Positions 12,114 through 51,377 of a stretch of 64,000 bases of DNA are shown here, in pieces. The stretch is from the NCBI RefSeq assembly GCF_000378425.1, contig NZ_KB899816.1, positions 1 to 64,000 on the forward strand, written 5' to 3'. Below the pieces are notes generated by a model. The model was not told where the DNA came from. It ran no database searches and saw only the letters and a program-made list of their open reading frames with translations. Positions within the stretch are counted from its first letter, which is position 1; every line of letters starts with the position of its first letter. The DNA is from Cohnella laeviribosi DSM 21336 (GTDB lineage: Bacteria; Bacillota; Bacilli; Paenibacillales; Paenibacillaceae). A program made the position numbers and the translations under genes.

Positions 12114-13664
12114 TTAACCGCCCGCCGCTCTGGGGACCATTTCTTTTTGCCTCGACATCTCGTCGCTCATGTAGGGCGTAAGGTCCAGCTCGCCTGTCGG
12201 GTTCGTCTTGATTTCCTGCAGCAGCTTGTTGCCGTTCGCTTGCCACTCCTGCAGCGCTTCCTTGACCGTCAGGTCGCCTCTCAGCGCTTTTTGGAACAAT
12301 TGGTCCCCGATCGTGGAAATATACATCAGGTTCGGCCGCTCGCGGTTAAGCTTATCTTCGGCCTCGTTGTATTCGAATTTGTTCGGTTTGAGCTTATAAA
12401 ACGCTTCGATGTTGTAGCTCAGGCCGTCAATCGGCTTGATGAACTCGGTAAGGGAGCTCATTTCATAGGTGCTGCGCGCTTTGAACTTGGCCGTCTCCTT
12501 GCTCGTGCTAAACTTGATGAATTCCCACGCGTCGTCCGGATTTTGCGCCTTGCTGTTGACGACCATGATCGAGCCCAAATACATGCTTCCTCCGACATCC
12601 GGCATTTCCGGAAGCGTCGGATAGGTGACGATATCCCAATCGATGAGCTGGTATTTTTTCAGTTTGTCGACGTTTTCGTTAAACGTCTTTAACTCGTTGA
12701 TCATATAGGCGCCGCCGATCGTCATCGCAACCCGGTTGGTGAAGAACGGGCGGTTAGAGTACGGGTCGTACCTGACGCCTTCGTTCGTCTCCTGCGGGTC
12801 GGGCATCAGATCCTCCTGATTCGGAATGACTTTTTGCCGGTACAACTCGACCGGCCGCTTCCACGCCCGCTCCCATTGCGGCGTATCGACGCTCATCGTC
12901 TCGCCCTTGTCGTCGTACATGCGCAGCTTGAGCGGAGCGACGATATTGTTGACGGAATAAAAATTGAGATCGCCGCCCCAATCGCTCAGCGACAACCCGA
13001 ATACTCTGTCTTTGCCCGTCCCCTTGCTCATCTGAACCGCCAGGTCGAAGATTTGGTCCCACGTCATGCCGTCGGTGGGAGGATTTACGCCCGCTTCGGA
13101 GAACAGCTTCTTGTTATAGAACAGCACGCTCGAGCTGAACGTCGGCGTCAGCCCGTAAATTTGATTGTTCCCGATTTCCCGCAACGTGTCCATCACCGCA
13201 GGCACAAACGCCTCCAGATCGATTTTGTCCTTTTTGATATAGGAATCGAGCGGCACGAGCAGATTATCCTGAATAAGCCGGGCCACCGTACCTTGGTCCA
13301 GGATCAGCACATCGACCGGATTCGCGCCGGTCATCATCTCTTTCAACTTCTCGTAATTGTCCACCCGCTGCTGCTCTTTCATTTCCTCTTCGGAAGCGAA
13401 CCGCATCGAGGACCAATCGGAAGCGTATTGAAACTCGATGTCGATGTTCTTCTTCGCCAGCTCGAACATATCCGAATACTGCTGGCGCAAGTAGGATTCG
13501 TCTTCCTTGCTGCCGGACATTAGCCCGATGCGAAGCGTTCTCCGGTTGTTCGGGTCGTCGGAATCGTCTCCGGCGCTGCAGGCCGCGGCAAGCGCGGCGA
13601 AAACGGCAAAAACGAGCATTACGGATATCGATTTCAATAAACGCAAACGGCGAATCGACTGCAC
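12114..13664 (-). CDS. Extracellular solute-binding lipoprotein, paralogue 2
   Basis: The 516-residue protein has a lipobox ending in Cys29 (ALAAAC) and the fold of family 1 (sugar-type) solute-binding proteins. Recognisable parts are LFYNKKLFSEAGVNPPTDGMTWDQ (about residues 182-205) and AQNPDDAWEFIKFSTSKE near the hinge. After processing it would be anchored outside the membrane. It shares length and many segments with the protein at 13764-15314, including DDPNNRRTLRIG after the lipobox, so the two arose by tandem duplication. It is the last large gene of the exporter operon, separated from its twin by a hairpin that may lower its expression. No sugar permease is nearby and the ligand is unknown. 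Confidence 0.85.
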   Translation of the reverse strand: MQSIRRLRLLKSISVMLVFAVFAALAAACSAGDDSDDPNNRRTLRIGLMSGSKEDESYLRQQYSDMFELAKKNIDIEFQYASDWSSMRFASEEEMKEQQRVDNYEKLKEMMTGANPVDVLILDQGTVARLIQDNLLVPLDSYIKKDKIDLEAFVPAVMDTLREIGNNQIYGLTPTFSSSVLFYNKKLFSEAGVNPPTDGMTWDQIFDLAVQMSKGTGKDRVFGLSLSDWGGDLNFYSVNNIVAPLKLRMYDDKGETMSVDTPQWERAWKRPVELYRQKVIPNQEDLMPDPQETNEGVRYDPYSNRPFFTNRVAMTIGGAYMINELKTFNENVDKLKKYQLIDWDIVTYPTLPEMPDVGGSMYLGSIMVVNSKAQNPDDAWEFIKFSTSKETAKFKARSTYEMSSLTEFIKPIDGLSYNIEAFYKLKPNKFEYNEAEDKLNRERPNLMYISTIGDQLFQKALRGDLTVKEALQEWQANGNKLLQEIKTNPTGELDLTPYMSDEMSRQKEMVPRAAGG

Positions 13665-13684
13665 AGCATTTCCCCCTTATCAAA

Positions 13685-13732
13685 GTAAAAGCACCGCGCA
13701 AATCCGTATCCTCCCGATGACTGCGCGGTGCT
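13685..13732 (-). terminator. Intercistronic hairpin between the two binding-protein genes
   Basis: An 11-bp stem AGCACCGCGCA/TGCGCGGTGCT is followed on the minus strand by TTTTAC. It could terminate part of the transcripts after the first binding-protein gene. Confidence 0.6.
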
Positions 13733-13763
13733 GCCCAGGATCAAATCCGGATTCCGTTATCCG

Positions 13764-15314
13764 TTAATCAAGGATGGCCATCCCGGAAGCCGAATGGGTC
13801 AATTCCTTGGCGCCGTAGACCCCGTCGTTTACCCCTTCGATGGGACCGTTCGGATTGAGCTTGATTTTTTGCAGCAGGTCGTTGCCCTTCGTCTCGAATT
13901 CGGCCAGCGCTTCCTTGACCGACATTTCGCCGTTGATCACCTTGTTGAACTCGGTTGCGGCCAACTGATCGATCAGGCTCAAATTCGGGCGCTCCTGGTA
14001 CAGCTTCGACCAGGTTGCGTTGTTGCGCTGCGGTACGGGCCTTACGCTCGTGAAGGCCTCCATGTTGTAGCTCATGCCTTCCTTCGGCTTGGCGAATTCG
14101 ATCAGCGACGGCAGCTCGTAGCTGCTCCGCGCCCGCAGCTTGCCCCACTCCTTGCCGTTCATGAACTTGACGAACTCCCACGCGTCGTCCGGGTTCTGAG
14201 CCTGGGCGTTGATGCCGGCCAGCGTGCTGATGTAGATGTAGTTGCTCACGCCCGGATTTTCCGCGAAGGTCGGCACGGAAACGACATCCCAGTCAAGCGC
14301 CTCCATGCCTTCGAATTTGTCGACGTTTTTGTTGAACAGTTCGATATCGTTGATCATGCTGTACGAACCGATGACCATCGCGACTTTGCCCTTGAAGAAA
14401 GCCTGTTCTTGGTACGGATTATAGCGGTACTTGCCGTCGTCGGGCTGCGGGTCGGGCTGGAGATCTTCCCGGGTCGGAAGCACTTTGTCTTTGTACAGGT
14501 TCGCAAACGTCGTCCAGACGGCCTCCCATTGCGGCGTGTTGACCGTCATCGTCTCCGCCTTGTCGTCGAACATCCGAAGCTGCAGCGGAGCCGCGTAATT
14601 GACCATATCGTAATAGCCGTCGCTGTAGCCCCATTGGTTAAACGTAAAGCCGAACGTCGCGTCTTTGCCCGATCCGGTCTTCAGGCGGCGCGCCAGATTA
14701 AACAAGTCGTCCCAGGTCATGCCGTTGGTCGGAACTTCGACGCCCAATTTCGAGAACAGTTTCTTATTATAAAAAAGCGCGGAAGGCGAGTAGGTCGGCG
14801 CCAGGGCGTAAAGGTTCTGGCCGTCGCCCATCTCCTTGATCCCTTCGATCACGGCGGGCACGTATTCGTTCAAATCGATCTTGTCTTCCTTAACAAGCGG
14901 ATCGAGCGGCTTGAGCAAGTTTTCCTGCACCATGCTGCCCAGCATGCTGGAATCGTTCAGGATCATGACGTCCACGGGATTGGGGCCCGTCATGATTTCC
15001 TTGACCTTTTCAAGGGGATCGGGCTGCTTTTGGTCCGGGGTTTGCTCCTCGAACTGCGTCTCGCTCCAGTCGATCGCCGGAACGATCTCGATGTCGATGT
15101 TGCCGTGCGTAAATTCGAACAGGTCGGTATATTGCTGGCGGAAATATTGCTCTTCCTGGCTGCTTCCGTACATCGTGCCGATGCGCAGCGTGCGCCGGTT
15201 GTTCGGATCGTCGGAGTTGCCTCCGCCGTTGCAGGCGGCAAGCAGGGAGCCGGCCAGCGTCAGGCTCAAGCCGGTCAACGCCAGCTTGCGAAAGCGGTTC
15301 GGGATAGTTTTCAT
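13764..15314 (-). CDS. Extracellular solute-binding lipoprotein, paralogue 1
   Basis: This is a 516-residue lipoprotein (lipobox LLAAC, Cys28) with the periplasmic-binding-protein type of family 1: LFYNKKLFSKLGVEVPTNGMTWDD, then KVAMVIGSYSMIND and AQNPDDAWEFVKFMNG. Its ATG overlaps the stop of the AbrB-tailed ATPase gene by four bases (ATGA), so it is translated together with the exporter genes. MacB/FtsX exporters normally have no solute-binding protein. It may instead sense an extracellular ligand or bind the cargo, but this is inference. The Asp/Asn/Arg-rich linker after the lipobox (NSDDPNNRRTL) is shared with paralogue 2. Confidence 0.85.
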   Translation of the reverse strand: MKTIPNRFRKLALTGLSLTLAGSLLAACNGGGNSDDPNNRRTLRIGTMYGSSQEEQYFRQQYTDLFEFTHGNIDIEIVPAIDWSETQFEEQTPDQKQPDPLEKVKEIMTGPNPVDVMILNDSSMLGSMVQENLLKPLDPLVKEDKIDLNEYVPAVIEGIKEMGDGQNLYALAPTYSPSALFYNKKLFSKLGVEVPTNGMTWDDLFNLARRLKTGSGKDATFGFTFNQWGYSDGYYDMVNYAAPLQLRMFDDKAETMTVNTPQWEAVWTTFANLYKDKVLPTREDLQPDPQPDDGKYRYNPYQEQAFFKGKVAMVIGSYSMINDIELFNKNVDKFEGMEALDWDVVSVPTFAENPGVSNYIYISTLAGINAQAQNPDDAWEFVKFMNGKEWGKLRARSSYELPSLIEFAKPKEGMSYNMEAFTSVRPVPQRNNATWSKLYQERPNLSLIDQLAATEFNKVINGEMSVKEALAEFETKGNDLLQKIKLNPNGPIEGVNDGVYGAKELTHSASGMAILD

Positions 15315-16195
15315 GCAGGTTCCTCCTCAATCGGTTTCGGTGCTTTGATGACGATTTGTTCTCCGTCGAACTCCATGCTTGCCTTGTCGCCGATCGAGAG
15401 AGCCTGCAAATATTCCTTGGGAATTTGCAGCCTTCCTACCCGGTCGACCACAACGAAAGCTTCATGCGCCTCGTTCAACCCTCCGCCGTGAAGCGGAGAA
15501 GCGCCGTCCAGATTCGGATTGCGCTTGATAAACTCGGTGCTCGTGAGCCCGTCGCGGATGGCGACGACGCGGTCGACTTTGCTGGCCAGCGACAAATCGT
15601 GGGTCACGATGACGATCGTCACCCCAAGCTCACGGTTGAAACGGCGGAATATATCCATGATCAAATCCGACGTTCGGGTGTCGACCGAGCCGGTGGGCTC
15701 GTCGGCCAGCAACAGCTGGGGCTTGTTGGCCAGCGCGATCGCGATGGCGACGCGCTGCTGCTCCCCGCCGGACAACTGCGTGAGCTTGTTGTGCATGCGG
15801 TCCTTCAGGCCGACCCATTCCAGCAGCTGCTTGGCATAGGCCCGGTCCAGCTTGCCGGAAAACATCATCGGCATCTCGACATTTTCCAGCGCGGTCAGAA
15901 ACGGCAGCAGGTTGCGGGCATTGTTCTGCCAAATAAATCCGACGGTATCGCGCTTATACTTGACAAGATCGTCGTCGCTCGCTTTCAGCAGGTTCCACGG
16001 GCCGACGGTCACTTGGCCGGCGGAGGGCCGGTCGAGTCCGCCCAGAATATTGAGCAGCGTCGATTTGCCGCTGCCGCTGTTGCCGATGATGGCCATCATC
16101 TCGCCTGCGCTGACCGACAGATTCAATCCTTGGAGCGCGACAACCTCGAGATCGTCGGTTTTGTAAATTTTCACCAATCCTTCGCAGTTAATCAT
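15311..16195 (-). CDS. ABC transporter ATPase with AbrB-like C-terminal domain
   Basis: Residues 1-225 form a MacB/LolD-type ATPase with Walker A GNSGSGKST, signature LSGGEQQR, Walker B LLLADEPTGS and the switch His in VTHDLS. The last 50 residues (about 245-294) carry VVVDRVGRLQIPKEYLQAL and then IGDKASMEFDGEQIVIK. This matches the swapped-hairpin SpoVT/AbrB fold (VDxxGRxxIP and a final charged strand). LolD-type ATPases usually end near residue 230, so this is a fusion. ATG 16195 follows GGAGAGGAG and overlaps the permease end by context. An in-frame TTG at 16216 is less likely. The tail may dimerise the ATPase or bind DNA. Its role is unknown. Confidence 0.85.
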   Translation of the reverse strand: MINCEGLVKIYKTDDLEVVALQGLNLSVSAGEMMAIIGNSGSGKSTLLNILGGLDRPSAGQVTVGPWNLLKASDDDLVKYKRDTVGFIWQNNARNLLPFLTALENVEMPMMFSGKLDRAYAKQLLEWVGLKDRMHNKLTQLSGGEQQRVAIAIALANKPQLLLADEPTGSVDTRTSDLIMDIFRRFNRELGVTIVIVTHDLSLASKVDRVVAIRDGLTSTEFIKRNPNLDGASPLHGGGLNEAHEAFVVVDRVGRLQIPKEYLQALSIGDKASMEFDGEQIVIKAPKPIEEEPA

Positions 16196-16199
16196 CGCG

Positions 16200-19085
16200 C
16201 TAACGCTCCTCTCCAAGCTTGACGGCCTGATGCACCCGCAACCGGCGAATGTGCGTCACGAGCATCACTATACCGATGAAGATCATGACGCCGACGACGG
16301 CGTAAAGCCGGATATCGTCCGCACTGTCGAACACGACCCGGAACGGCGGCACCTGGTTCGCCGCATTGTCGGTCGTTTGCAGAAACGGCAGGAACAGCAG
16401 GCTCGTCAGCTTGCCGATGCCGATGCCAAGTCCGATGGACAGCCCGGCCGTGAATATCTGCTCGAGCAGCAGCATGCCGGTCAGCTGCCTTCGCGACAGC
16501 CCCATCGCCCGCAAAATCCCGATCTGCACGATCCGCCCGGACAGATTGAAGAACCAGAACAGAACGTATCCGGACAGCGACACGATCACCGTCACCAGGA
16601 AGCCGAGGCTCAGAATGCCGAACACGCCGCCGCGGGCGGGATGTTTGGCTTGGGCGATCAGCTCGCTGCGAACGTCGTCGATCGAGGCGATCTGTATGCC
16701 CTTTTCCTGCAGCACCGGGATGATCGGGGCCGTCTTGGCGTCCGGCTGCATTTTCAGCCACACCTCGTAGGGCATAAGCGGCGCTTGGTCGTAGATATAG
16801 TCCAGGTTGGCGACGATGAACGGCGATTGATCCGGATATTGGCCCGGCCAATACGGAATGATCGCCGCGACCACGAATTCGACCGGCTGGTCCTGCAGCA
16901 CGACCCTGACCGAATCGCCTGTCTTCAAGTTGTACTTCTTCGCCAGGTTCGAGCTGACCAGCGCGAATTCCGGCGCTTTGCCCATGACGGCGAGATACTT
17001 GAACGGATGCGCGGGATACAGGTCGTCGCGGAACCAGGCGACCCGGGCAAAATCGACGTTGTCGATGCCGACGACCGTTCCCTGCCCCGCCGACCGCCCC
17101 GAAATCGTAATATTGGCTTTCGTCTGCAGCACTCTGGCGGCGTGCTCGACGCCCGGCAGCGTGCGGAACACTTCGAACGGCGGCTCGTTGTAATTGATCC
17201 GGGTAACCGTCGGCGTCTGTCCGCCTCCGCCCGCACCGGGACCGCCGCCTTGTCCCTGGCCTCCTCCTTGCCCTTGCCCGCCGCCCTGGCCCGAGCCTCC
17301 GCCCGACGACGGGGGCGCGAATTCGGCATTCGCTTCCCAGCTCGTCTTGACAATGACGTCCGTCCCGTATTTGTACAAAATCCGCTCCTCCGAATTCAGG
17401 CCGATCGTACGGGCCGCAGAGGCGTTGTACACGCCGAGCCCGAGCGTCAAAATCAGCAGAATCATCAGCGGGTAATACGATTTGGATGAGCGGGACAACT
17501 GCGTGAGCGTCAAGTACAGCGGAACCGGAAGGAATTTTTTCCAAAGCCAGTTAAACAGCTTGAGCAGCAGCGGGAACAGCCTCAAAAAGACGAGCGCCGC
17601 CGAGAAGATCGCGATCGCCGGCACGAAGAACAGGAACGGCTGCACGTTAAGCTGGTCCGTCGTCACGCCGGTTTTGAACGAAACCATCTGCCGCTCGTTA
17701 AACAGATACCAGCCGTAGGCGGCGACGGCGAGCAGCGCGACGTCGAGGAACCAGCGCTGCCATGCCGGCGGCCGGTCCGTCCGCGCCATCATCCGCTTGT
17801 AATCGACGATCGAGGTCCGCGTGAACACGATAGCCGGGATCACAGCCGCGCCGATCGCCACGAGAACGGCCGCAAGTCCCGCCAGAATCCCGTCCGTGCC
17901 GAAGCCGACCGGGATCGCCTTGCGGTTGACAAACTCGAGAAAACCGCTGGCCGAACCGATGCTCTTGGCCATGAACCATCCGATCATCGGCCCCAGGATC
18001 AGCGACAGGGCGCCGAGCAGAACCCCTTCGAGCAGAAACAGCATGAAGATCTGCCTCGTTGCGGCGCCCCGGCTCCGCATCACCGCGATGTCGGACCGCT
18101 GCTTCTCCAGCGATTGGCGGGCGTTCATCGCAATGAAATAGAACACCATCGCAATCATCGGCGCCGCCAGCATAAACAGCATCGTTTGCATCTGCAGGCT
18201 GTCGCGGCGGAATTCCCCGAGCATGTCGGCGAAGGAAAGGTCGACCCGCGTATCCTTCAGCTTCTGGTACACCTCGATATCGATCCGGCTCAGCGTGCTG
18301 CTGAGCGGCGCCAGCTGGCTCGTCTGGATGTCGCGCAAATCGTACACGGTGTACCAGTTCGCCGTTTGAAGCGGTATCTTCTGCTTGCGGACCAGATCCT
18401 CAAGCATCGCCTCGTCGGAGATGAACAGCGTGTTCATCAGGCTGTCGAGGCCCTGATACCAGTACGCGCCGGTTTCGTCCTTCGGCTTGTAGGCGCCGAC
18501 GATTTCCACCCGCAGCGTAAGGTTCAGGCCGCCGTAAATCGGATACAGCAACACGTCTCCGACATGAAGGTCGTTGCGGAACATCGCTTCTTCCATCATG
18601 ACCGCCTGCAGCGTGCCGTCGGCGCCCGCCCGGTCGGCGAACCAGCGTCCGGACGCGAGCTCCGTCTGATCCTTCAGGCCGCTGAAGGAAGCGATGGTCA
18701 TCGTGCGGGTCCGGCTGGCGTCGACCTTGGTCGGGTCCTCCGGCGTCACCTGCGTGTTGCGCAGCGTCAGGCTCCGCTGGGACACTTCGACCGGAAAGCC
18801 GATGGCGGCGGGCACCTCTTCGTTAATGTACTTGTCGACATTGCCGAAGCCTTCAAGGTCCGTCTTCCCGTCGGTCGACTGGTAACGGATCAGCAGCGAC
18901 CCGGCCGGAAGTCCTTGGCTGTTGTCCTGGAGCGATTGGGCAACGACCCGCTTGAGCGCTCCGTCGGCATACATCGGAATGCTGGTCGTAAACGCGACGG
19001 CCACCAGCAAACCGGCCAACGTGCTGAGCGTAAGCCAGCGGGTGTTCCACATTTTACGGAATAAAAAACGGATCAGCGCGCTCAT
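16200..19085 (-). CDS. Large FtsX/MacB-type ABC permease
   Basis: The 961-residue membrane protein has an N-terminal helix (residues 17-40), a large extracellular domain, and two FtsX-like transmembrane blocks. The first block is at about residues 300-520 (FYFIAMNARQSLEKQRSDIAVMRSRG). The second is near the C-terminus (FFNLSGRIVQIGILRAMGLSRRQ and later VGVMIFIGIVMLVTHIRRL). The length is double that of single-block MacB permeases, so one chain may form the whole pore. A Gly/Gln-rich linker at about residues 592-624 consists almost only of Gly, Gln, Ser and Pro and lies outside the membrane. It is probably part of a tripartite exporter with the adaptor upstream and the two ATPases. Confidence 0.85.
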   Translation of the reverse strand: MSALIRFLFRKMWNTRWLTLSTLAGLLVAVAFTTSIPMYADGALKRVVAQSLQDNSQGLPAGSLLIRYQSTDGKTDLEGFGNVDKYINEEVPAAIGFPVEVSQRSLTLRNTQVTPEDPTKVDASRTRTMTIASFSGLKDQTELASGRWFADRAGADGTLQAVMMEEAMFRNDLHVGDVLLYPIYGGLNLTLRVEIVGAYKPKDETGAYWYQGLDSLMNTLFISDEAMLEDLVRKQKIPLQTANWYTVYDLRDIQTSQLAPLSSTLSRIDIEVYQKLKDTRVDLSFADMLGEFRRDSLQMQTMLFMLAAPMIAMVFYFIAMNARQSLEKQRSDIAVMRSRGAATRQIFMLFLLEGVLLGALSLILGPMIGWFMAKSIGSASGFLEFVNRKAIPVGFGTDGILAGLAAVLVAIGAAVIPAIVFTRTSIVDYKRMMARTDRPPAWQRWFLDVALLAVAAYGWYLFNERQMVSFKTGVTTDQLNVQPFLFFVPAIAIFSAALVFLRLFPLLLKLFNWLWKKFLPVPLYLTLTQLSRSSKSYYPLMILLILTLGLGVYNASAARTIGLNSEERILYKYGTDVIVKTSWEANAEFAPPSSGGGSGQGGGQGQGGGQGQGGGPGAGGGGQTPTVTRINYNEPPFEVFRTLPGVEHAARVLQTKANITISGRSAGQGTVVGIDNVDFARVAWFRDDLYPAHPFKYLAVMGKAPEFALVSSNLAKKYNLKTGDSVRVVLQDQPVEFVVAAIIPYWPGQYPDQSPFIVANLDYIYDQAPLMPYEVWLKMQPDAKTAPIIPVLQEKGIQIASIDDVRSELIAQAKHPARGGVFGILSLGFLVTVIVSLSGYVLFWFFNLSGRIVQIGILRAMGLSRRQLTGMLLLEQIFTAGLSIGLGIGIGKLTSLLFLPFLQTTDNAANQVPPFRVVFDSADDIRLYAVVGVMIFIGIVMLVTHIRRLRVHQAVKLGEER

Positions 19086-19088
19086 GCC

Positions 19089-20225
19089 TTACCGCCCCAC
19101 GACTTTCTGCCCCGGCTTCAAGCCCTGCAGCACTTCCACGTCCGTCGCCGTCTGCTGGCCGACCTCGATGTCGACCTCGCGTTTGCTGCCGTCCGGTTCC
19201 ACGACCTGCACATACGTCCTGGCTCCGATCGTGCGAAGCGCGGAGGTCGGAATGACGACGGCGTTCTCCTTCCGGTTGACGACGACCGACACCGTAAGCG
19301 GCGTTCCCCTCGTCGCCTTGGCCGGCAGATTGGGAACGTCGACGAGCAGGTAGTTGCTCGGCTTGTCGGTTTTCGCCCCGCCGGAGCCCCCGTTTCCGGG
19401 TAGTCCGTTTCCGCTGCCGTTGCCGCTGCCTGCGGACGGCTCCGGAAGCGCCTTGACCTTGCCTTTCAGCTCGCCGACATTGTTAATGGATACGTTCGCC
19501 TCCATCCCGACGGCGATCTTCTCCAGGTTGTCCTTGCTGAAGTCGGCGGCCACCACAAGGCGGCTCGTATCGGCCACGACCGCGATCGGATCGTAGGCTT
19601 TGATGGCGGCGCCTTCCTCGACGCTGACCGACACGACCGTCCCTGCGAACGGGGCGGTCAGCGTGGCGGCCGCGATGTCTTGCTGCAGATCCGCCAGCGC
19701 TTGGCGCGCTTCCTCGAAGTCGATCTGTTTCTGTTCGAATTCGAGCGGATCCATCTCGTCCTTTTGCCGCAGCGTGTTTTTCATGTCAAGCTCCAGCTTC
19801 CGGAATTGCAGCTGCTGCGTGCGCAGCGATTTTTTCAAGTCCTCCACGTCCAGTTCCGCGACGACTTGCCCCGCCTTGACGACGTCGCCGGTTTGTATGT
19901 ACAGCTTTTTGATTCGTTTGCCTTCCAATGCAGATGAAGTATAATAGAGCGTCTTCTCTTGCTGGGACATGATTTTGCCCGAAGCTTGAACCTTCGTTTC
20001 CAGCGTTTTGGTCGTCACTTCATACTCCGGCTTCTTCGAGATCTGCGGCAGTTGAATCGCCGACAAATCCTCCTCCTCCGGCTCGTCGGGCAGCAGCGAG
20101 CAGCCGGCGAGAACCGCGGACAGGGATATAACGGCCAAGGCCGAAGCCGTTCTGCGGCGTTTGCGGCGCCACGGCTCCTTCAACTCACTTCGATACGAAT
20201 ACGCCGTCCACCATTTCATAGACAT
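19089..20225 (-). CDS. Membrane-fusion/adaptor lipoprotein of ABC exporter (HlyD/MacA-like)
   Basis: The 378-residue protein has a basic N-region, a hydrophobic stretch and lipobox VLAGC (Cys42). A biotinyl-lipoyl-like half follows (KKLYIQTGDVVKAGQVVAELD), then a coiled coil (about residues 120-185, rich in Lys, Glu, Gln), and the second lipoyl half (LTAPFAGTVVSVSVEEGAAI). A Gly/Ser/Asn-rich insert (about residues 270-292) precedes the last beta domain. ATG 20225 has GGAGG nine bases upstream and lies 41 bp inside the preceding ATPase gene. It links the permease to the cell-wall side. In Gram-positive bacteria such adaptors act with MacB-type permeases. Confidence 0.85.
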   Translation of the reverse strand: MSMKWWTAYSYRSELKEPWRRKRRRTASALAVISLSAVLAGCSLLPDEPEEEDLSAIQLPQISKKPEYEVTTKTLETKVQASGKIMSQQEKTLYYTSSALEGKRIKKLYIQTGDVVKAGQVVAELDVEDLKKSLRTQQLQFRKLELDMKNTLRQKDEMDPLEFEQKQIDFEEARQALADLQQDIAAATLTAPFAGTVVSVSVEEGAAIKAYDPIAVVADTSRLVVAADFSKDNLEKIAVGMEANVSINNVGELKGKVKALPEPSAGSGNGSGNGLPGNGGSGGAKTDKPSNYLLVDVPNLPAKATRGTPLTVSVVVNRKENAVVIPTSALRTIGARTYVQVVEPDGSKREVDIEVGQQTATDVEVLQGLKPGQKVVGR

Positions 20226-20967
20226 GATCCGCTACCTCCAATATGGTTAAATCGTGTGTCGTCATGCAAATCGTGACGTTTTCCGTCTCGACGATGTGCC
20301 GAAACACCGTGATGATATGCGCGGCCATCTGCGAGTCCAGCTCGGCCGTCGGCTCGTCCGCGAGCAGCAGGCTCGGCTTGTGCGAAATCGCCTTGGCGAT
20401 GGCGACCCGCTGCTGCTCCCCCCCGGACAGCTCGGAAGGCCGATGGTGCATCCGCTTCGACAGGCCGACCATATCCAGGCATTCGGTGATCCGTTTTTTC
20501 CATTGGGATCTCGGGACCCCTGCCATCCGCAGCGTCAGCTCGACGTTTTCATAGGCGGAAAGCAGCGGCAGCAGCGCGTAGGCCTGAAAGATGAACCCGA
20601 TGTCCCGGCGCCGAATCTCGGTCCGCTTGTTGTCGTCCAGCTTGTGAAGCGGTCTTCCCTGAAAAAAAATTTCGCCGGCCGTCGGCGTATCCAATCCGCC
20701 CATCAAGTTCATGAGCGTCGTTTTGCCGGAGCCCGATCTTCCTTTTAACATGACAAGCTGCTTAGGGTACAGCTTGAGATCGATTCCTTTCAGCACGCGC
20801 AGCTTCTGGCCGCCGACATCGAACGAGCGCTCCACCCCGCGCACCGTCAGCAGCGGCTCCGAAGGCGTGTCCCGCTCCCCGGAAGCGGCGGCGGCATGCC
20901 GATCTTCGGCGTTATCTATCGAAGCCGGAGATTCCGGGCTTTTTTTGCGCGGCAACCATGACAGCAT
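20185..20967 (-). CDS. ABC transporter ATPase (MacB/LolD type)
   Basis: The 260-residue ATPase has Walker A GRSGSGKTT, signature LSGGEQQR, Walker B LLLADEPTAELD and switch His in MTTHDLT. A disordered N-terminal extension of about 38 residues (SPESPASIDNAEDRHAAAAS) precedes the ATPase domain, unlike its counterpart at 15311. ATG 20967 follows GGGGGG AACAAGAAC. In-frame upstream codons to 21042 have no ribosome site. It is the first gene of the exporter operon and overlaps the adaptor gene by 41 bp. The two ATPases in one operon could form a heterodimer on the single large permease. That is inference. Confidence 0.85.
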   Translation of the reverse strand: MLSWLPRKKSPESPASIDNAEDRHAAAASGERDTPSEPLLTVRGVERSFDVGGQKLRVLKGIDLKLYPKQLVMLKGRSGSGKTTLMNLMGGLDTPTAGEIFFQGRPLHKLDDNKRTEIRRRDIGFIFQAYALLPLLSAYENVELTLRMAGVPRSQWKKRITECLDMVGLSKRMHHRPSELSGGEQQRVAIAKAISHKPSLLLADEPTAELDSQMAAHIITVFRHIVETENVTICMTTHDLTILEVADHVYEMVDGVFVSK

Positions 20968-44528: not shown

Positions 44529-45215
44529 ATGCACGGAAGCAGTACGCCTCTCGTCAAATGGATGACCGCCTTCCGTCTCGTTTCGAACACCGCCAAAGGC
44601 ATCAACGCCGTTCGACTGCAGGCGGCGATCGGCGTCACCTACAAAACCGCGTTCGCGATGCTTCGGAAAATTCGCCGCGTCCTCGTCCAGTCGAACGAAC
44701 GGGAACCGTTGACCGGCCATGTCAAGGGCGGACTGCGTTATTACGGCCGTTATTTGAACATATCTCCGGAGGCAAACGGGAAGCTTCAGCCGATTGTTGT
44801 CGCCGCTTCTTTTTCGTCCGGTTGGAACTGGCGGCCTGCTCAAATCAAAATGAATCATATATCCAAAGCCTACTTGCCGAACGGCTATCTCCTCAAAATC
44901 GGAATTCAGGATTACGCCGAGCGGTACGTTCATCCGGATGCAAAAAGCGTTTTTGTGGGACGCGGCCGCATGCTGCTCAATCGTATTCGTCCGCTGCCCG
45001 AATTGTTTGCCGACGCCAAGCGATGGATCAACCGCACATTCCGGGGCCTCGGACCCCGGTACCTGCAAACGTACCTGGACGAATACTGCTTTCGGCTCCA
45101 TCTGGTTTTACGCAAAGAGCCCATCTTCATGAGGCTTGTTGCGGTCTGCATGCGCACCTGTTGCCCGTCAGCCTTTGCGCAACCGGTCGCTCCCTTTTAC
45201 AAGCTAGGATGCTGA
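44529..45215 (+). pseudogene. Decayed IS1595-family (ISXO2-like) transposase
   Basis: A 228-codon frame keeps several IS1595 landmarks: HGSSTPLVKWMTAFRLVS, then INAVRLQAAIGVTYKTAFAMLRKIRR, and near the C-terminus RTFRGLGPRYLQTYLDEYCFRL. Just upstream, in the same frame, RQTSLISDTVMHG resembles the end of the family zinc ribbon, but the cysteines are gone. The first catalytic Asp motif (family form VDxxxxGG) is replaced by HVKGGLRYYG, so it cannot be an active DDE enzyme. I saw no terminal inverted repeats. It lies between sigG and ylmC, where Bacillus has ylmA. It is either a fossil or a domesticated protein. The open frame favours neither. Confidence 0.65.
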
Positions 45216-48101: not shown

Positions 48102-49178
48102 TTATTGAAGCACGACGGTATCCCCTTCGCGGACGCCTTCGACGATCTCCGTTTTGTCCGGCGTTTCCAACCCGATCTTCACCGGCTGCTTGACAATCGC
48201 TCCGTTGCGTTCGAGATAAACGAAATAGCCGCTGTCCTCGTGCATGACCGCGAGAGTGGGCACAACGACGACGCCGGATTTTTTGTCCGTCTGAATGGTG
48301 CCGACCAGACTCAGGCCGGCGATCAGATCGGGACTGGCTTCAAGAGAAATTACAACCTCAAACTGTGCCGGATCCGTGCCCGCCTTGGCGAATTTGGAGA
48401 CGCTGTCGACAACGCCTTTTAATTTCTTTTGCTTCAGCGCCTCGACTTTGATGTCGACTTCCATCCCCGGCTTGATCCGGAACACCTCGTATTCGCTGAC
48501 GGTACTGATCAGCCGAAGCTTCGACGTATTGACGATTTTGCCCAGCGGAGCGCCGGTATCGACCATCTTCGGCTCTTTGGTTTCGGCAAACAAAAAAATG
48601 CCGTCCGCAGGGGCTTTGTACTGTGCCTTGGCCAGCTTGTCCATGTTCGCCTTCAGCTCCTTACGGGCAATGTCCAGCTGCGCTTCGGCCAGCTCGGCTT
48701 CCGCCGTCTCCCGCTCCGAGTTGGCGTACTGTTCCAAAGCGGCGCTCCGGTCGCCCCATTCCGCCGTCTCCACCTCCTCTTCCTTGACCTGCTTCTGCAT
48801 TTGGCTCAGTTTAAGGTCGAGCTCCTGCTTGCGCAAATTCGCCTTCGCCAGTTCGATGCTGTCGCGAAGGGCCGAGTCCTCCAGTTGGAACAGCACCTGG
48901 CCTTTGGCCACCTGGCTGCCGTCCCGCACCTTCCATGCTTTCACTTCGGAAGCAAACGGCGCGTACACCCAGGTTTCTTCCGCGTAAGTGGATTTGCCTT
49001 TCACTTCGATCGTATTGACAATGTCCTCTTTCGTCGCCTGTAGCCGAATAACGTTGGCGATTGCGGCTTCCGGCGGGGCGGATTGGCCTGCCGACCGGTT
49101 CAGGGAAAACAGCAAATACGTAACAAGCGCAATCAAGACCACCAACAAAATCAAAATCCAAGTCGACTTTTTTTTCAT
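48102..49178 (-). CDS. ABC exporter adaptor (HlyD/MacA-like), membrane-anchored
   Basis: The 358-residue protein has one N-terminal membrane anchor (WILILLVVLIALVTYLLFSL, residues 6-25) and no lipobox, unlike the adaptor at 19089. It has lipoyl halves (VRDGSQVAKGQVLFQLED and APADGIFLFAETKEPKMVDTGAPL). Between them is a coiled coil (about residues 105-190, rich in Lys and Glu). The C-terminal beta domain follows. It joins the permease at 49256 and the ATPase at 50566 to form a MacAB-type exporter. The start ATG at 49178 follows AGGAGAACG. The substrate is unknown. Similar operons in Bacillales export peptides or antibiotics. Confidence 0.85.
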   Translation of the reverse strand: MKKKSTWILILLVVLIALVTYLLFSLNRSAGQSAPPEAAIANVIRLQATKEDIVNTIEVKGKSTYAEETWVYAPFASEVKAWKVRDGSQVAKGQVLFQLEDSALRDSIELAKANLRKQELDLKLSQMQKQVKEEEVETAEWGDRSAALEQYANSERETAEAELAEAQLDIARKELKANMDKLAKAQYKAPADGIFLFAETKEPKMVDTGAPLGKIVNTSKLRLISTVSEYEVFRIKPGMEVDIKVEALKQKKLKGVVDSVSKFAKAGTDPAQFEVVISLEASPDLIAGLSLVGTIQTDKKSGVVVVPTLAVMHEDSGYFVYLERNGAIVKQPVKIGLETPDKTEIVEGVREGDTVVLQ

Positions 49179-49213
49179 TCCGTCGTTCTCCTCATCCGGT
49201 TTCTTTCGATCCT

Positions 49214-49269
49214 CTAATCTCTTTTCGCTAATCTCTTTTCACTAATCTCTTTTCTCTACTCTCTTTTGA
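49214..49269. repeat. 14-bp tandem repeat overlapping the permease stop
   Basis: Three near-identical 14-bp units CTAATCTCTTTTC(G/A/T) at 49214, 49228 and 49242 are followed by a related fourth (49256-49269). The fourth is the last codons and stop of the permease gene. On the minus strand each unit reads as AAA-AGA-GAT-TAG. Confidence 0.85.
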
Positions 49270-50569
49270 TGGCGGTCAGGGCATCCGTTCGGGACGCTTT
49301 GATCGCCGGATAGATCCCGGACAATACGCCGGTCAACAGCGCAAAAAACAGCCCGAGGGCCAGGATCCACGGCTCGATGAACAGAATTTCCTCGCTGTCG
49401 GCGAACCGTTGCAACACGATATTGATCGACCAGATGACCCAATACGAAAACAAAATGCCGAAACACCCGCCGATAAATCCCAGCAAAGCGGATTCAACGA
49501 CAAACATGTTGCGGATTTGCGCCAAATTCGCGCCGAGCACCTTCATGATGCCGATCTGTCTTCTCCGTTGGTAGGTCGACATCGTCATCGCCACGATGAT
49601 GGAAATCGAAGCCACAAACAGAATAAAAAGTCCCGCTCCGCCGAAGATGAAACGAATGATTTTGAACTGCGCGTTCGTTTCTTCCTGATACCGGATATTC
49701 GACTGGGTCCTAAGACCCAGCTTTTGAATCCATTTTTCAACCTGGGCCACGTTCGACGGGTCGTCCACCTTGATGACGAGCTGGGTGTCCGAATTCCCCG
49801 CCGCGGCGCCGCTGCCGGACCGTTTCGCCTGTTCGATCCGCTCCGCCAGCCCCAGCGATATATAGCCGATTTTCTGGCCTTCGTAACCTGCGGCGCCGTC
49901 AGGCTTCTTCAATACGCCGACGACGCGGACCGGAAACGCCTCAAAGCGCGCCGCGCCATTGCTCTCTCCCGTATAAACGCTAAGCGTCAGTTGCTTTTGG
50001 TAGAGCGGATAAGCGATTCTTTGCCGTTTTTCGCCGCCGCCGGGATTTGCGCCTTCCTGTCCCGACTTGAGCTGGTCAAGGCGAGTGTCGTACAGATCGT
50101 ACATCGCGGAGTAGGTCACGACGATCGCGTTGTCCTGATCGGAGAACGATCCCTGCCCCAGCTCATAGCCGAATTCCTCCAGTTTGCCGAGCTCCGCCCC
50201 GGTAAGCTGCAGACTTCCGCGCTTCGTTCCGTCCACGATGAAGGAAGCGTAATCCACCGGCTGAAAGACGGCTGCGCTGCGAACATGCGGAAGCTGCCGA
50301 ATCACATCGATCTTCTGCTCGGTCATGCCGCCGGCGTCGGCTCCGCTGCCTCCCGGGGAAGCGGAGCCATCCCCGTAGACCGTAATTTCGTCCATTTTGA
50401 GAAACGAGTTCATCTGCACTCTGGCATAATGCGCGATCGACTCGCCGAATGCCAAAGCGACGATAATCGCCGCCGAACCGATGGCGATCCCCATCGTGCA
50501 CAGCAGCGTCACGACCATTCTCCTCCGCAGTTGGTCCCATCCGAGCGCAATATAATCCCTGAGCCTCAT
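49256..50569 (-). CDS. MacB-type ABC permease with FtsX domain
   Basis: The 437-residue protein begins with a cytoplasmic helix and membrane helix (MRLRDYIALGWDQLRRRMVVTLLCTMGIAIGSAAIIVALAF). A large extracellular MacB-PCD domain (about residues 45-290) follows. Three C-terminal helices carry the FtsX pattern: GLFILFVASISIIVAMTMST, QRRRQIGIMKVLGA, and FFALLTGVLSGIYPAIKASR. It is half the length of the 961-residue permease at 16200 and would work as a dimer. It overlaps the ATPase gene by four bases (50566-50569, ATGA). The stop region forms part of a tandem repeat. Confidence 0.88.
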   Translation of the reverse strand: MRLRDYIALGWDQLRRRMVVTLLCTMGIAIGSAAIIVALAFGESIAHYARVQMNSFLKMDEITVYGDGSASPGGSGADAGGMTEQKIDVIRQLPHVRSAAVFQPVDYASFIVDGTKRGSLQLTGAELGKLEEFGYELGQGSFSDQDNAIVVTYSAMYDLYDTRLDQLKSGQEGANPGGGEKRQRIAYPLYQKQLTLSVYTGESNGAARFEAFPVRVVGVLKKPDGAAGYEGQKIGYISLGLAERIEQAKRSGSGAAAGNSDTQLVIKVDDPSNVAQVEKWIQKLGLRTQSNIRYQEETNAQFKIIRFIFGGAGLFILFVASISIIVAMTMSTYQRRRQIGIMKVLGANLAQIRNMFVVESALLGFIGGCFGILFSYWVIWSINIVLQRFADSEEILFIEPWILALGLFFALLTGVLSGIYPAIKASRTDALTAIKRE

Positions 50570-51258
50570 CCGGCTTCACCTCTTGATTCCTCGGGGGAAG
50601 CCAGCCTTCCGTCGCGCAAATAAACGATCCGCTGCGCCCTTTGCGCCACTTCGTGCTCGTGCGTCACGATGATAAACGTCATCCCGAGGCGCGAATTCAA
50701 ATCGAGCAGCAGATCGATAATTTCTTTCTCCGTCTTCGTATCCAGATTCCCGGTAGGCTCATCGGCGAACACGATCGTCGGAGAGGTGACCAGCGACCGG
50801 GCGATGCTGACCCGCTGCTGCTGCCCTCCGGACAATTGGGACGGGTAGAGGGAAATTTTATCCCCCAATCCGACCTGCGTCAGCATTTCCGCCGCCCGCG
50901 CCCTTCGCTCCCTGGGCTTTACCCCTTGGAAGATGAGCGGCAGCTCCACATTTTCGAGCACCGAAAAATGAGGAATCAGTTCATAGGATTGAAAAATAAA
51001 CCCGATATGTTTCCGGCGAAATTCGGAGAGCTCGTTCTCGTTCATCTTTTCGATCGCCTGACCGGCGATCTTGATCGTTCCCTTTGTCGGCTTCATCAAC
51101 CCCGCCATCAAGTTCAACAGTGTCGATTTGCCTGAGCCCGAACTGCCAAGCAGCGCTACGACTTCTTTCTTATGTACGACCAGATCGATTCCGTCCAGAA
51201 CCGTCGTCTCTTCCGTCCCGTTGCGAAAACAATGGGACAAGCCTTGAATCTCTAGCAT
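50566..51258 (-). CDS. ABC exporter ATPase, MacB/LolD family
   Basis: The 230-residue ATPase has Walker A GSSGSGKST, signature LSGGQQQRVSIARSL, Walker B IVFADEPTGNLD and switch His in IVTHEHE. It is of normal LolD length, without the AbrB tail found in the ATPase at 15311. The start ATG at 51258 follows AAGGAGGAGAG. An in-frame upstream codon at 51342 lies in the ftsZ terminator region. It is the first gene of a three-gene exporter operon placed between ftsZ and spoIIGA. Confidence 0.9.
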   Translation of the reverse strand: MLEIQGLSHCFRNGTEETTVLDGIDLVVHKKEVVALLGSSGSGKSTLLNLMAGLMKPTKGTIKIAGQAIEKMNENELSEFRRKHIGFIFQSYELIPHFSVLENVELPLIFQGVKPRERRARAAEMLTQVGLGDKISLYPSQLSGGQQQRVSIARSLVTSPTIVFADEPTGNLDTKTEKEIIDLLLDLNSRLGMTFIIVTHEHEVAQRAQRIVYLRDGRLASPEESRGEAG

Positions 51259-51339
51259 ATCTCTCCTCCTTTTCCACTCTATTCTACCTGAACCGCCGCC
51301 GCCGCTGCCATACTTTGTCCAGTCCGGAACTCCGGACAA

Positions 51340-51377
51340 CAAAAAAAAACCCCTCGCCGAATAGTCGGTAAGGAGTT
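51340..51377 (-). terminator. Terminator after ftsZ
   Basis: On the minus strand CTCC...CCGA pairs with TCGG...GGGG around a CTAT loop, followed by nine Ts. Confidence 0.8.

Follow-up and report, generated by a model that had tools for sequence, protein, structure and literature searches.

The closest described relatives of the ATP-binding cassette (ABC) system considered here, which lies in a 64,000-nucleotide stretch of Cohnella laeviribosi DSM 21336 (contig NZ_KB899816.1, positions 1 to 64,000; hereafter the window) and includes an ATPase with an AbrB-like C-terminal tail, are the MacAB/MacB family and the Escherichia coli Type VII system YbbAP-TesA. MacB carries its ATPase fused to a permease with a single FtsX domain, and YbbAP-TesA presumably works without a membrane-fusion protein, unlike the window system. 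In the AbrB-type fold two hairpins normally interweave to form a barrel, and the ATPase of MetN-type ABC importers likewise bears a small extra C-terminal domain, of a different fold and in an importer context. YbbP, a permease of the same two-domain type as the one in the window, carries two ATPases (PMC12646458), and the nucleotide-binding domains (NBDs) of MacB-type systems may be fused or separate, the ATPase being a separate protein where the permease is fused from two (PMC5985334). AbrB is absent from the main text of both papers, as are Paenibacillus and Streptomyces from that of the YbbAP paper, and a literature search limited to openly licensed titles and abstract openings found no published description of an AbrB-tailed ABC ATPase.

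The window system resembles YbbAP-TesA in combining a LolD-type ATPase with a permease that holds two FtsX domains in one chain, in the presence of YbbA among the top structural matches of its ATPase model, and probably in having two ATPases per permease, as described for YbbAP (PMC12646458); in YbbAP-TesA these are two molecules of one ATPase, YbbA. With the MacAB/MacB family it shares a membrane-fusion protein, an FtsX permease and a LolD-type ATPase, the MacB ATPase domain being another top match, whereas MacAB/MacB has no second ATPase. The tail resembles the N-terminal domain of AbrB, Abh and SpoVT (PDB 1yfb, 2fy9, 2w1t) in its hairpin fold and D-x-x-G-R core but differs in mostly lacking basic residues at the positions of AbrB R8, K9, R23 and R24, in having Gln at that of V17, and in sitting on an ATPase. 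The AbrB-tailed ATPase is real, well conserved and ordinary for its subfamily, and we have not found it described. The reading that we prefer, at about even confidence, is that the tail is a repurposed AbrB hairpin whose task is to pair proteins, carried by one of the subunits of a two-ATPase Type VII ABC machine.

The tailed ATPase gene occupies 15311-16195 on the minus strand, the exact coordinates at which an earlier note, made from the sequence alone, had placed it, and its translation gives 294 amino acids and a stop. Residues 1-221 (15533..16195, minus) form an ABC ATPase domain in which the Walker A (GNSGSGKST), signature (LSGGEQQR), Walker B (LLLADEP) and H-loop (VTHD) motifs are all complete and which matched PF00005 in a Pfam scan (E = 1.5e-33), bearing out the earlier statement that a complete LolD-type ATPase precedes the tail. 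LolD-type models also recognized this domain; the top NCBIfam model, LolD TIGR02211, scored 223 bits against a cut-off of 307.75, short of the LolD equivalog, and the best structural matches in Foldseek were MJ0796, LolD, MacB and YbbA. With this motif set and an FtsX-type permease gene beside it, the protein is an ABC ATPase of the LolD/MacB (Type VII) group. The full-length AlphaFold model was poor (predicted local distance difference test, pLDDT, 61.8; seven sequences), and we therefore took from it the secondary structure and the ATPase fold alone. Residues 222-241 (15473..15532, minus) make up a variable linker, with a distance from the IRDG motif to the tail of 16-52 residues across 66 proteins, and family profiles, fold search and alignment place the AbrB/MazE/SpoVT-type hairpin at residues ~242-288 (15332..15472, minus). 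The translation contains the tail residues cited in the earlier note, ending ...HEAFVVVDRVGRLQIPKEYLQALSIGDKASMEFDGEQIVIKAPKPIEEEPA, and the other two LolD-type ATPases of the window (20185-20967 and 50566-51342, both minus) end without a tail, as the note had said.

Scanned as a single sequence against Pfam and NCBIfam, the tail gave sub-threshold matches only (MazE_antitoxin PF04014, E = 0.031, 14.6 bits, under the cut-off of 24.7; MraZ, E = 0.054), and so the case for an AbrB-like domain was built on family profiles. When 21 tails were scanned singly at E ≤ 1, MraZ was matched by 20 of them (best E = 0.0015) and MazE_antitoxin by 15 (best E = 1.6e-4). Seven residues (H, D, G, R, Q, P and K) were invariant across 21 tails from related genomes, and D, R and Q were invariant in 20/20 once tails from Clostridia and Actinomycetota were included. 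Comparison in hhalign of a 20-row tail alignment with three proteins of the same genome (AbrB-like, SpoVT-like and a third AbrB-type) returned 94.5% (E = 8.1e-8), a level that no shuffle approached: 0 of 200 column shuffles reached 50% (best 29.9%), and the reversed alignment gave 2.1%. The AlphaFold model of the tail was of moderate confidence (pLDDT 75.8; predicted template modelling score, pTM, 0.46), with a predicted strand-strand-helix-strand-strand hairpin, and a Foldseek search of the PDB with this model placed AbrB, Abh and SpoVT at ranks 1-7 (probabilities 0.92-1.00, E-values 0.05-0.26), followed at lower ranks by MazE, archaeal AbrB-like, VapB and MraZ chains. Judged by profile relationship and predicted fold, the tail is a true hairpin of the AbrB/MazE/SpoVT superfamily. 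The earlier note had proposed a C-terminal SpoVT/AbrB-like domain, to be given up if a profile search found no AbrB match or if the tail were folded otherwise; hhalign and Foldseek found neither outcome and upheld the proposal, on which a single-sequence scan alone is indecisive.

The tail is widespread. Across 40 genomes (that of the window and 39 relatives) we recovered 74 matches of at least 343 bits, the next match scoring 191 bits, and 36 of the genomes held at least one of them. All but two of the 74 matches (72/74) extend at least as far as query residue 273; as to the two shorter ones, L053 has the tail behind a longer linker, and L052 (474-671) is a paralogue of the tailed ATPase with its tail out of frame, the sole loss among these close matches. 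A profile of the tail matched in 114/149 genomes of the window's order (E 1e-6; frames of 291-433 amino acids where listed), in 51/151 genomes of a sample of Chloroflexota, the phylum of an Anaerolinea genome (E 1e-4), and in 64/101 genomes of the Streptomyces caelestis family (E 1e-4); one of the 51 Chloroflexota matches, an 80-amino-acid frame, is probably an ordinary AbrB protein. Genes were read for part of the sample matches, and all intact ones that were fetched and read proved to be ATPases. The search for the same architecture in other genomes that the earlier note had suggested thus found it in samples of three phyla, and the description of the architecture as unusual, which may hold for ABC ATPases generally, is wrong for this subfamily.

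With a less broad profile applied to wider samples at E 1e-3, 13/299 Bacillota genomes matched, 8 of them on ATPases, and 7/149 Actinomycetota genomes, 4 of them on ATPases. Among the matches off ATPases, five (L065, L153-L156) are by eye small AbrB/VapB-type proteins or frames that end so, and one (L066) is SRP54, the GTPase of the signal recognition particle (SRP); four (L063, L064, L067, L068) were left without assignment. A search for the tail in seven genomes from other groups came back empty, a result that carries no weight. A scan of genome contigs yielded 80 loci, 6 of them tailed (L069-L074) and the others mostly ordinary ABC ATPases, because the search patterns lay in the ATPase. In the Streptomyces family, five further frames (L195-L199) show a clear tail while the ATPase part is shifted, shortened or unrecognized: L195 and L196 start within the final part of an ATPase, pieces of an ATPase lie in other or shorter frames at L197 and L199, and L198, whose ATPase part was not recognized, could be a free tail protein. 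One Chloroflexota locus, L194 (5900-7147), encodes a tailed ATPase whose single chain bears two AbrB-type tails in tandem, with a tail-less partner alongside; in its first tail copy Leu replaces the usual core Arg.

Several results weigh against the tail being a genuine and generally kept AbrB domain. The tail model was built on seven sequences, the Foldseek matches all fell short of E 0.001, 4 of the 40 genomes (G026, G029, G031, G036) lacked a tailed match among the 74, and a sequence-only search of the PDB ranked SRP GTPases level with AbrB (E = 0.041 and 0.047). The SRP GTPases score in this way because they share a DTAGRLQ-like motif; they align with the first half of the tail only and do not appear among the 49 fold hits listed, so that fold search and hhalign, unlike the sequence-only search, separate AbrB from them. 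Run against the whole genome, the tail profile found one copy at E < 0.004, in the tailed ATPase itself, and the second match (E = 0.0045) was the DTAGRLQ stretch of an SRP54-like protein. The tail might on this evidence be a neutral extension with an accidental likeness to AbrB, for example by way of the SRP GTPase motif, as the sub-threshold single-sequence E-values would also allow; we give this next to no probability, given the shuffle control, the fold search, conservation in three phyla and a ratio of nonsynonymous to synonymous differences (pN/pS) that is lower in the tail than in the linker. The ratio was 0.093 for the ATPase, 0.195 for the tail and 0.290, the highest of the three regions, for the linker, values that we use for the order of the regions only because synonymous sites are nearly saturated and the pairs are not independent of one another. 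They come from 22 of the 30 closest loci, the script having dropped the other 8, probably when a later record for that protein overwrote them, and linkers were compared only in pairs where their lengths agreed.

We compared the tails with the proposed DNA contacts of AbrB, which are R8, R15, R23 and R24 (PMC4022651), adding the neighbouring K9. Among 82 distinct tails found by profile, a basic residue occupied the R8 position in 0, K9 in 0, R23 in 5 and R24 in 8; the tails read mostly V/A, V/I, L and E/Q at these positions, and the window tail reads V, V, L and Q. For comparison, five bona fide AbrB-type domains encoded by these genomes were basic at R8, K9 and R23 in 5/5 and at R24 in 4/5. 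The hairpin core is kept (D11 in 82/82, G14 in 81/82, P19 in 81/82), the V17 position is Gln in 82/82, and the former DNA face is now largely hydrophobic. The net charge of 65 tails, a set chosen by motif, unlike the 82, averaged −1.3 (range −4 to +1). By its residues the tail thus departs from an AbrB-type DNA-binding regulator, which would be basic at R8, K9, R23 and R24.

These residues bear on the suggestion in the earlier note that the transporter acts on gene expression, in which the tail would bind DNA and the transporter would sense or control expression of its own operon. A real AbrB fold speaks for it, as does R15, which is kept in 81/82 tails and to that extent counts against a purely protein-joining tail; an R15A mutant of AbrB is reported to retain DNA binding that is about five-fold weaker (PMC4022651), so that retention of R15 is weak evidence for DNA binding. 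The other contact positions (basic in 0, 0, 5 and 8 of 82 tails against 5, 5, 5 and 4 of 5 AbrB-type domains), the acidic mean charge, and the constant location of the tail on a transporter ATPase among the intact genes read all disfavour this role, and we consider it very unlikely and DNA binding the least likely of the functional readings. Having lost most of the basic residues that grip DNA, the tail more likely joins proteins than controls genes.

The tailed ATPases form one lineage and generally keep company with a second. In a FastTree tree of 206 ATPase domains, 84 tailed ATPases and L052 fell into one clade (support 0.967), as did 66 tailed ATPases in a smaller tree (0.914); tail-less leaves were tried as outgroup (all in the larger tree, 40 in the smaller) and the smallest clade was taken. 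Because tailed proteins served as queries when the sample was drawn, the trees show the coherence of the subfamily rather than a complete census. A tail-less lineage of partner ATPases had support of 0.995 in the smaller tree; it includes the Chloroflexota protein L107, which has no tailed neighbour in its 7.1-kb contig. Among loci whose flanks reached 4.8 kb or more on each side, an FtsX-type permease was present in 27/27 and a tail-less partner-type ATPase in 25/27. These 27 are records, a few of which show a gene more than once: L071 and L180, the two without a partner, represent a single Streptomyces caelestis gene. With duplicates removed (L180, L181 and L201) and all neighbourhoods included, whatever their flank, a partner-type ATPase lay in the locus of 41/47 intact tailed genes. 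This association with a second, tail-less ATPase lineage goes beyond the earlier note.

The gene order in the window runs from the tail-less ATPase through the membrane-fusion protein, the two-domain FtsX permease and the tailed ATPase to two solute-binding proteins, all on the minus strand. The partner ATPase (20185..20967, start codon inferred; PF00005, E = 4.2e-34) has orthologues that make up the separate partner lineage. It is followed by the membrane-fusion protein (19089..20225), of the HlyD/resistance-nodulation-division (RND) adaptor type (PF16576, E = 5.6e-17; TIGR01730, 108.7 bits, above cut-off), and by the FtsX-type permease (16200..19085), a chain of 961 amino acids with two FtsX domains (PF02687, E = 8e-19, two stretches) and 9 hydrophobic segments by hydropathy. 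In the eight distinct actinobacterial loci we found two large permeases instead of one, and no match to a membrane-fusion protein.

From these observations we infer the following arrangement. The tailed ATPase would be one of two non-identical motor subunits of a machine like MacB, LolCDE or YbbAP, the other parts being the two-domain FtsX permease and, in the window, the membrane-fusion protein. Since YbbP, a permease of this two-domain type, carries two ATPases (PMC12646458), and there are two companion ATPase genes here, one of each may pair on one permease. The flexible linker would tether the hairpin to the ATPase, and two hairpins, from tailed ATPases of one complex or of neighbouring complexes, could then interlock in the cytoplasm; alternatively, the hairpin could bind a partner by way of the former DNA face, now largely hydrophobic. 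Pairing or docking might fix the stoichiometry or clustering of the machine and in this way affect transport. Protein pairing appears the likeliest action of the tail because the barrel normally needs two hairpins, and among the roles suggested in the earlier note, dimerizing or tethering is the better-supported family. The tandem tails of L194 place both hairpins in one chain, which fits pairing as a single case.

The pairing reading can be extended to a clasp, in which two woven hairpins of this converted type join two asymmetric transporters into a larger assembly, throughout the subfamily in Bacillota, Actinomycetota and Chloroflexota. We advance this extension tentatively and think it rather doubtful; to our knowledge, no ABC complex built by such an AbrB-hairpin clasp has been described.

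Other points tell against pairing and the two-ATPase arrangement. If each permease holds one ATPase of each kind, a transporter has a single hairpin, and a full barrel would need a second complex, a tailed homodimer or a further partner; tandem tails were seen in one genome only. Support for the partner lineage falls to 0.673 in the larger tree (39 leaves). No partner ATPase was found near 6 of the 47 tailed genes (L071, L072, L173, L175, L200, L203). The L072 contig ends 3 kb downstream, and L173 and L175 are cut by contig ends; the Streptomyces genomes of L071 and L072 encode a partner-type ATPase elsewhere (62-64% identity, next match at most 52%) that groups in the partner lineage. L200 (3856-4728) and L203 (3972-4880), with no tail-less partner in their 3-4 kb flanks, stand as exceptions, and for L201 the 4.4 kb to each side contained no permease match. 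L200 and L203 are a divergent pair of Chloroflexota tailed ATPases that adjoin an actinobacterial-type permease.

A rival reading is a docking half-barrel, in which the single, unpaired hairpin packs on the tail-less ATPase or the permease and marks the NBD site of its subunit in a heterodimeric pair. The separate companion lineage beside 41/47 tailed genes, encoded elsewhere in two genomes without adjacency, and the hydrophobic former DNA face agree with such a dock, yet a linker of 16-52 residues is loose for a fixed one, AbrB-type hairpins are normally dimers, a tandem tail pair exists in L194, and the divergent L200 and L203 have no partner nearby; we see docking as possible though unlikely. 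The invariant Gln and Asp (each 82/82) could instead form part of a site where a small ligand or a protein binds to a pair of tails, which would then gate ATP hydrolysis in the manner of the C-terminal domain of MetN, and C-terminal domains of ABC ATPases are often regulatory. The same residues also sit at the structural turn of the AbrB hairpin, and the family scans, beyond which no search was made, showed no ligand-binding signature, which leaves a sensor role improbable in our judgement.

Under the preferred pairing reading, a DNA-binding fold has apparently been recruited to a different task in a membrane machine of wide occurrence, and the tail, as the mark of one of two ATPase lineages that are apparently kept together, offers a way into studying that machine. 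If the clasp model holds, removing the ~50 residues would directly test complex size and stoichiometry. A weak AbrB match should not lead to such ATPases being annotated as regulators.

The remaining genes of the operon encode two related extracellular solute-binding proteins, protein 1 at 13764..15314 (PF01547, E = 1.1e-27) and protein 2 at 12114..13664 (PF01547, E = 6.6e-26), both minus. The ATG of protein 1 overlaps the stop codon of the tailed ATPase, and protein 1 adjoins the tailed ATPase in 8/8 orthologous loci (L157-L164), a best match to protein 2 being present in 2 of the 8 (L157, L158). Related solute-binding proteins occur upstream in L170-L172, and in the Chloroflexota locus L107 a tandem one neighbours the partner-type ATPase. 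Sugar-type solute-binding proteins (12114-15314) are unexpected on an exporter-like system with an FtsX permease and a membrane-fusion protein. The permease itself contains a long Gly/Gln-rich low-complexity run between hydrophobic segments (~residues 598-626). A defence-system reading of the locus was dropped, the PADLOC matches being to ATPase models and on the two ATPases only.

Elsewhere in the window, 48102-51342 holds a second MacB-like set consisting, as named from translations, of an adaptor, an FtsX-like permease and the tail-less LolD-type ATPase, near apparent ftsZ, ftsA and sporulation sigma-factor genes. A frame at 44529-45215 resembles, judged from its translation, an IS1595-type transposase.

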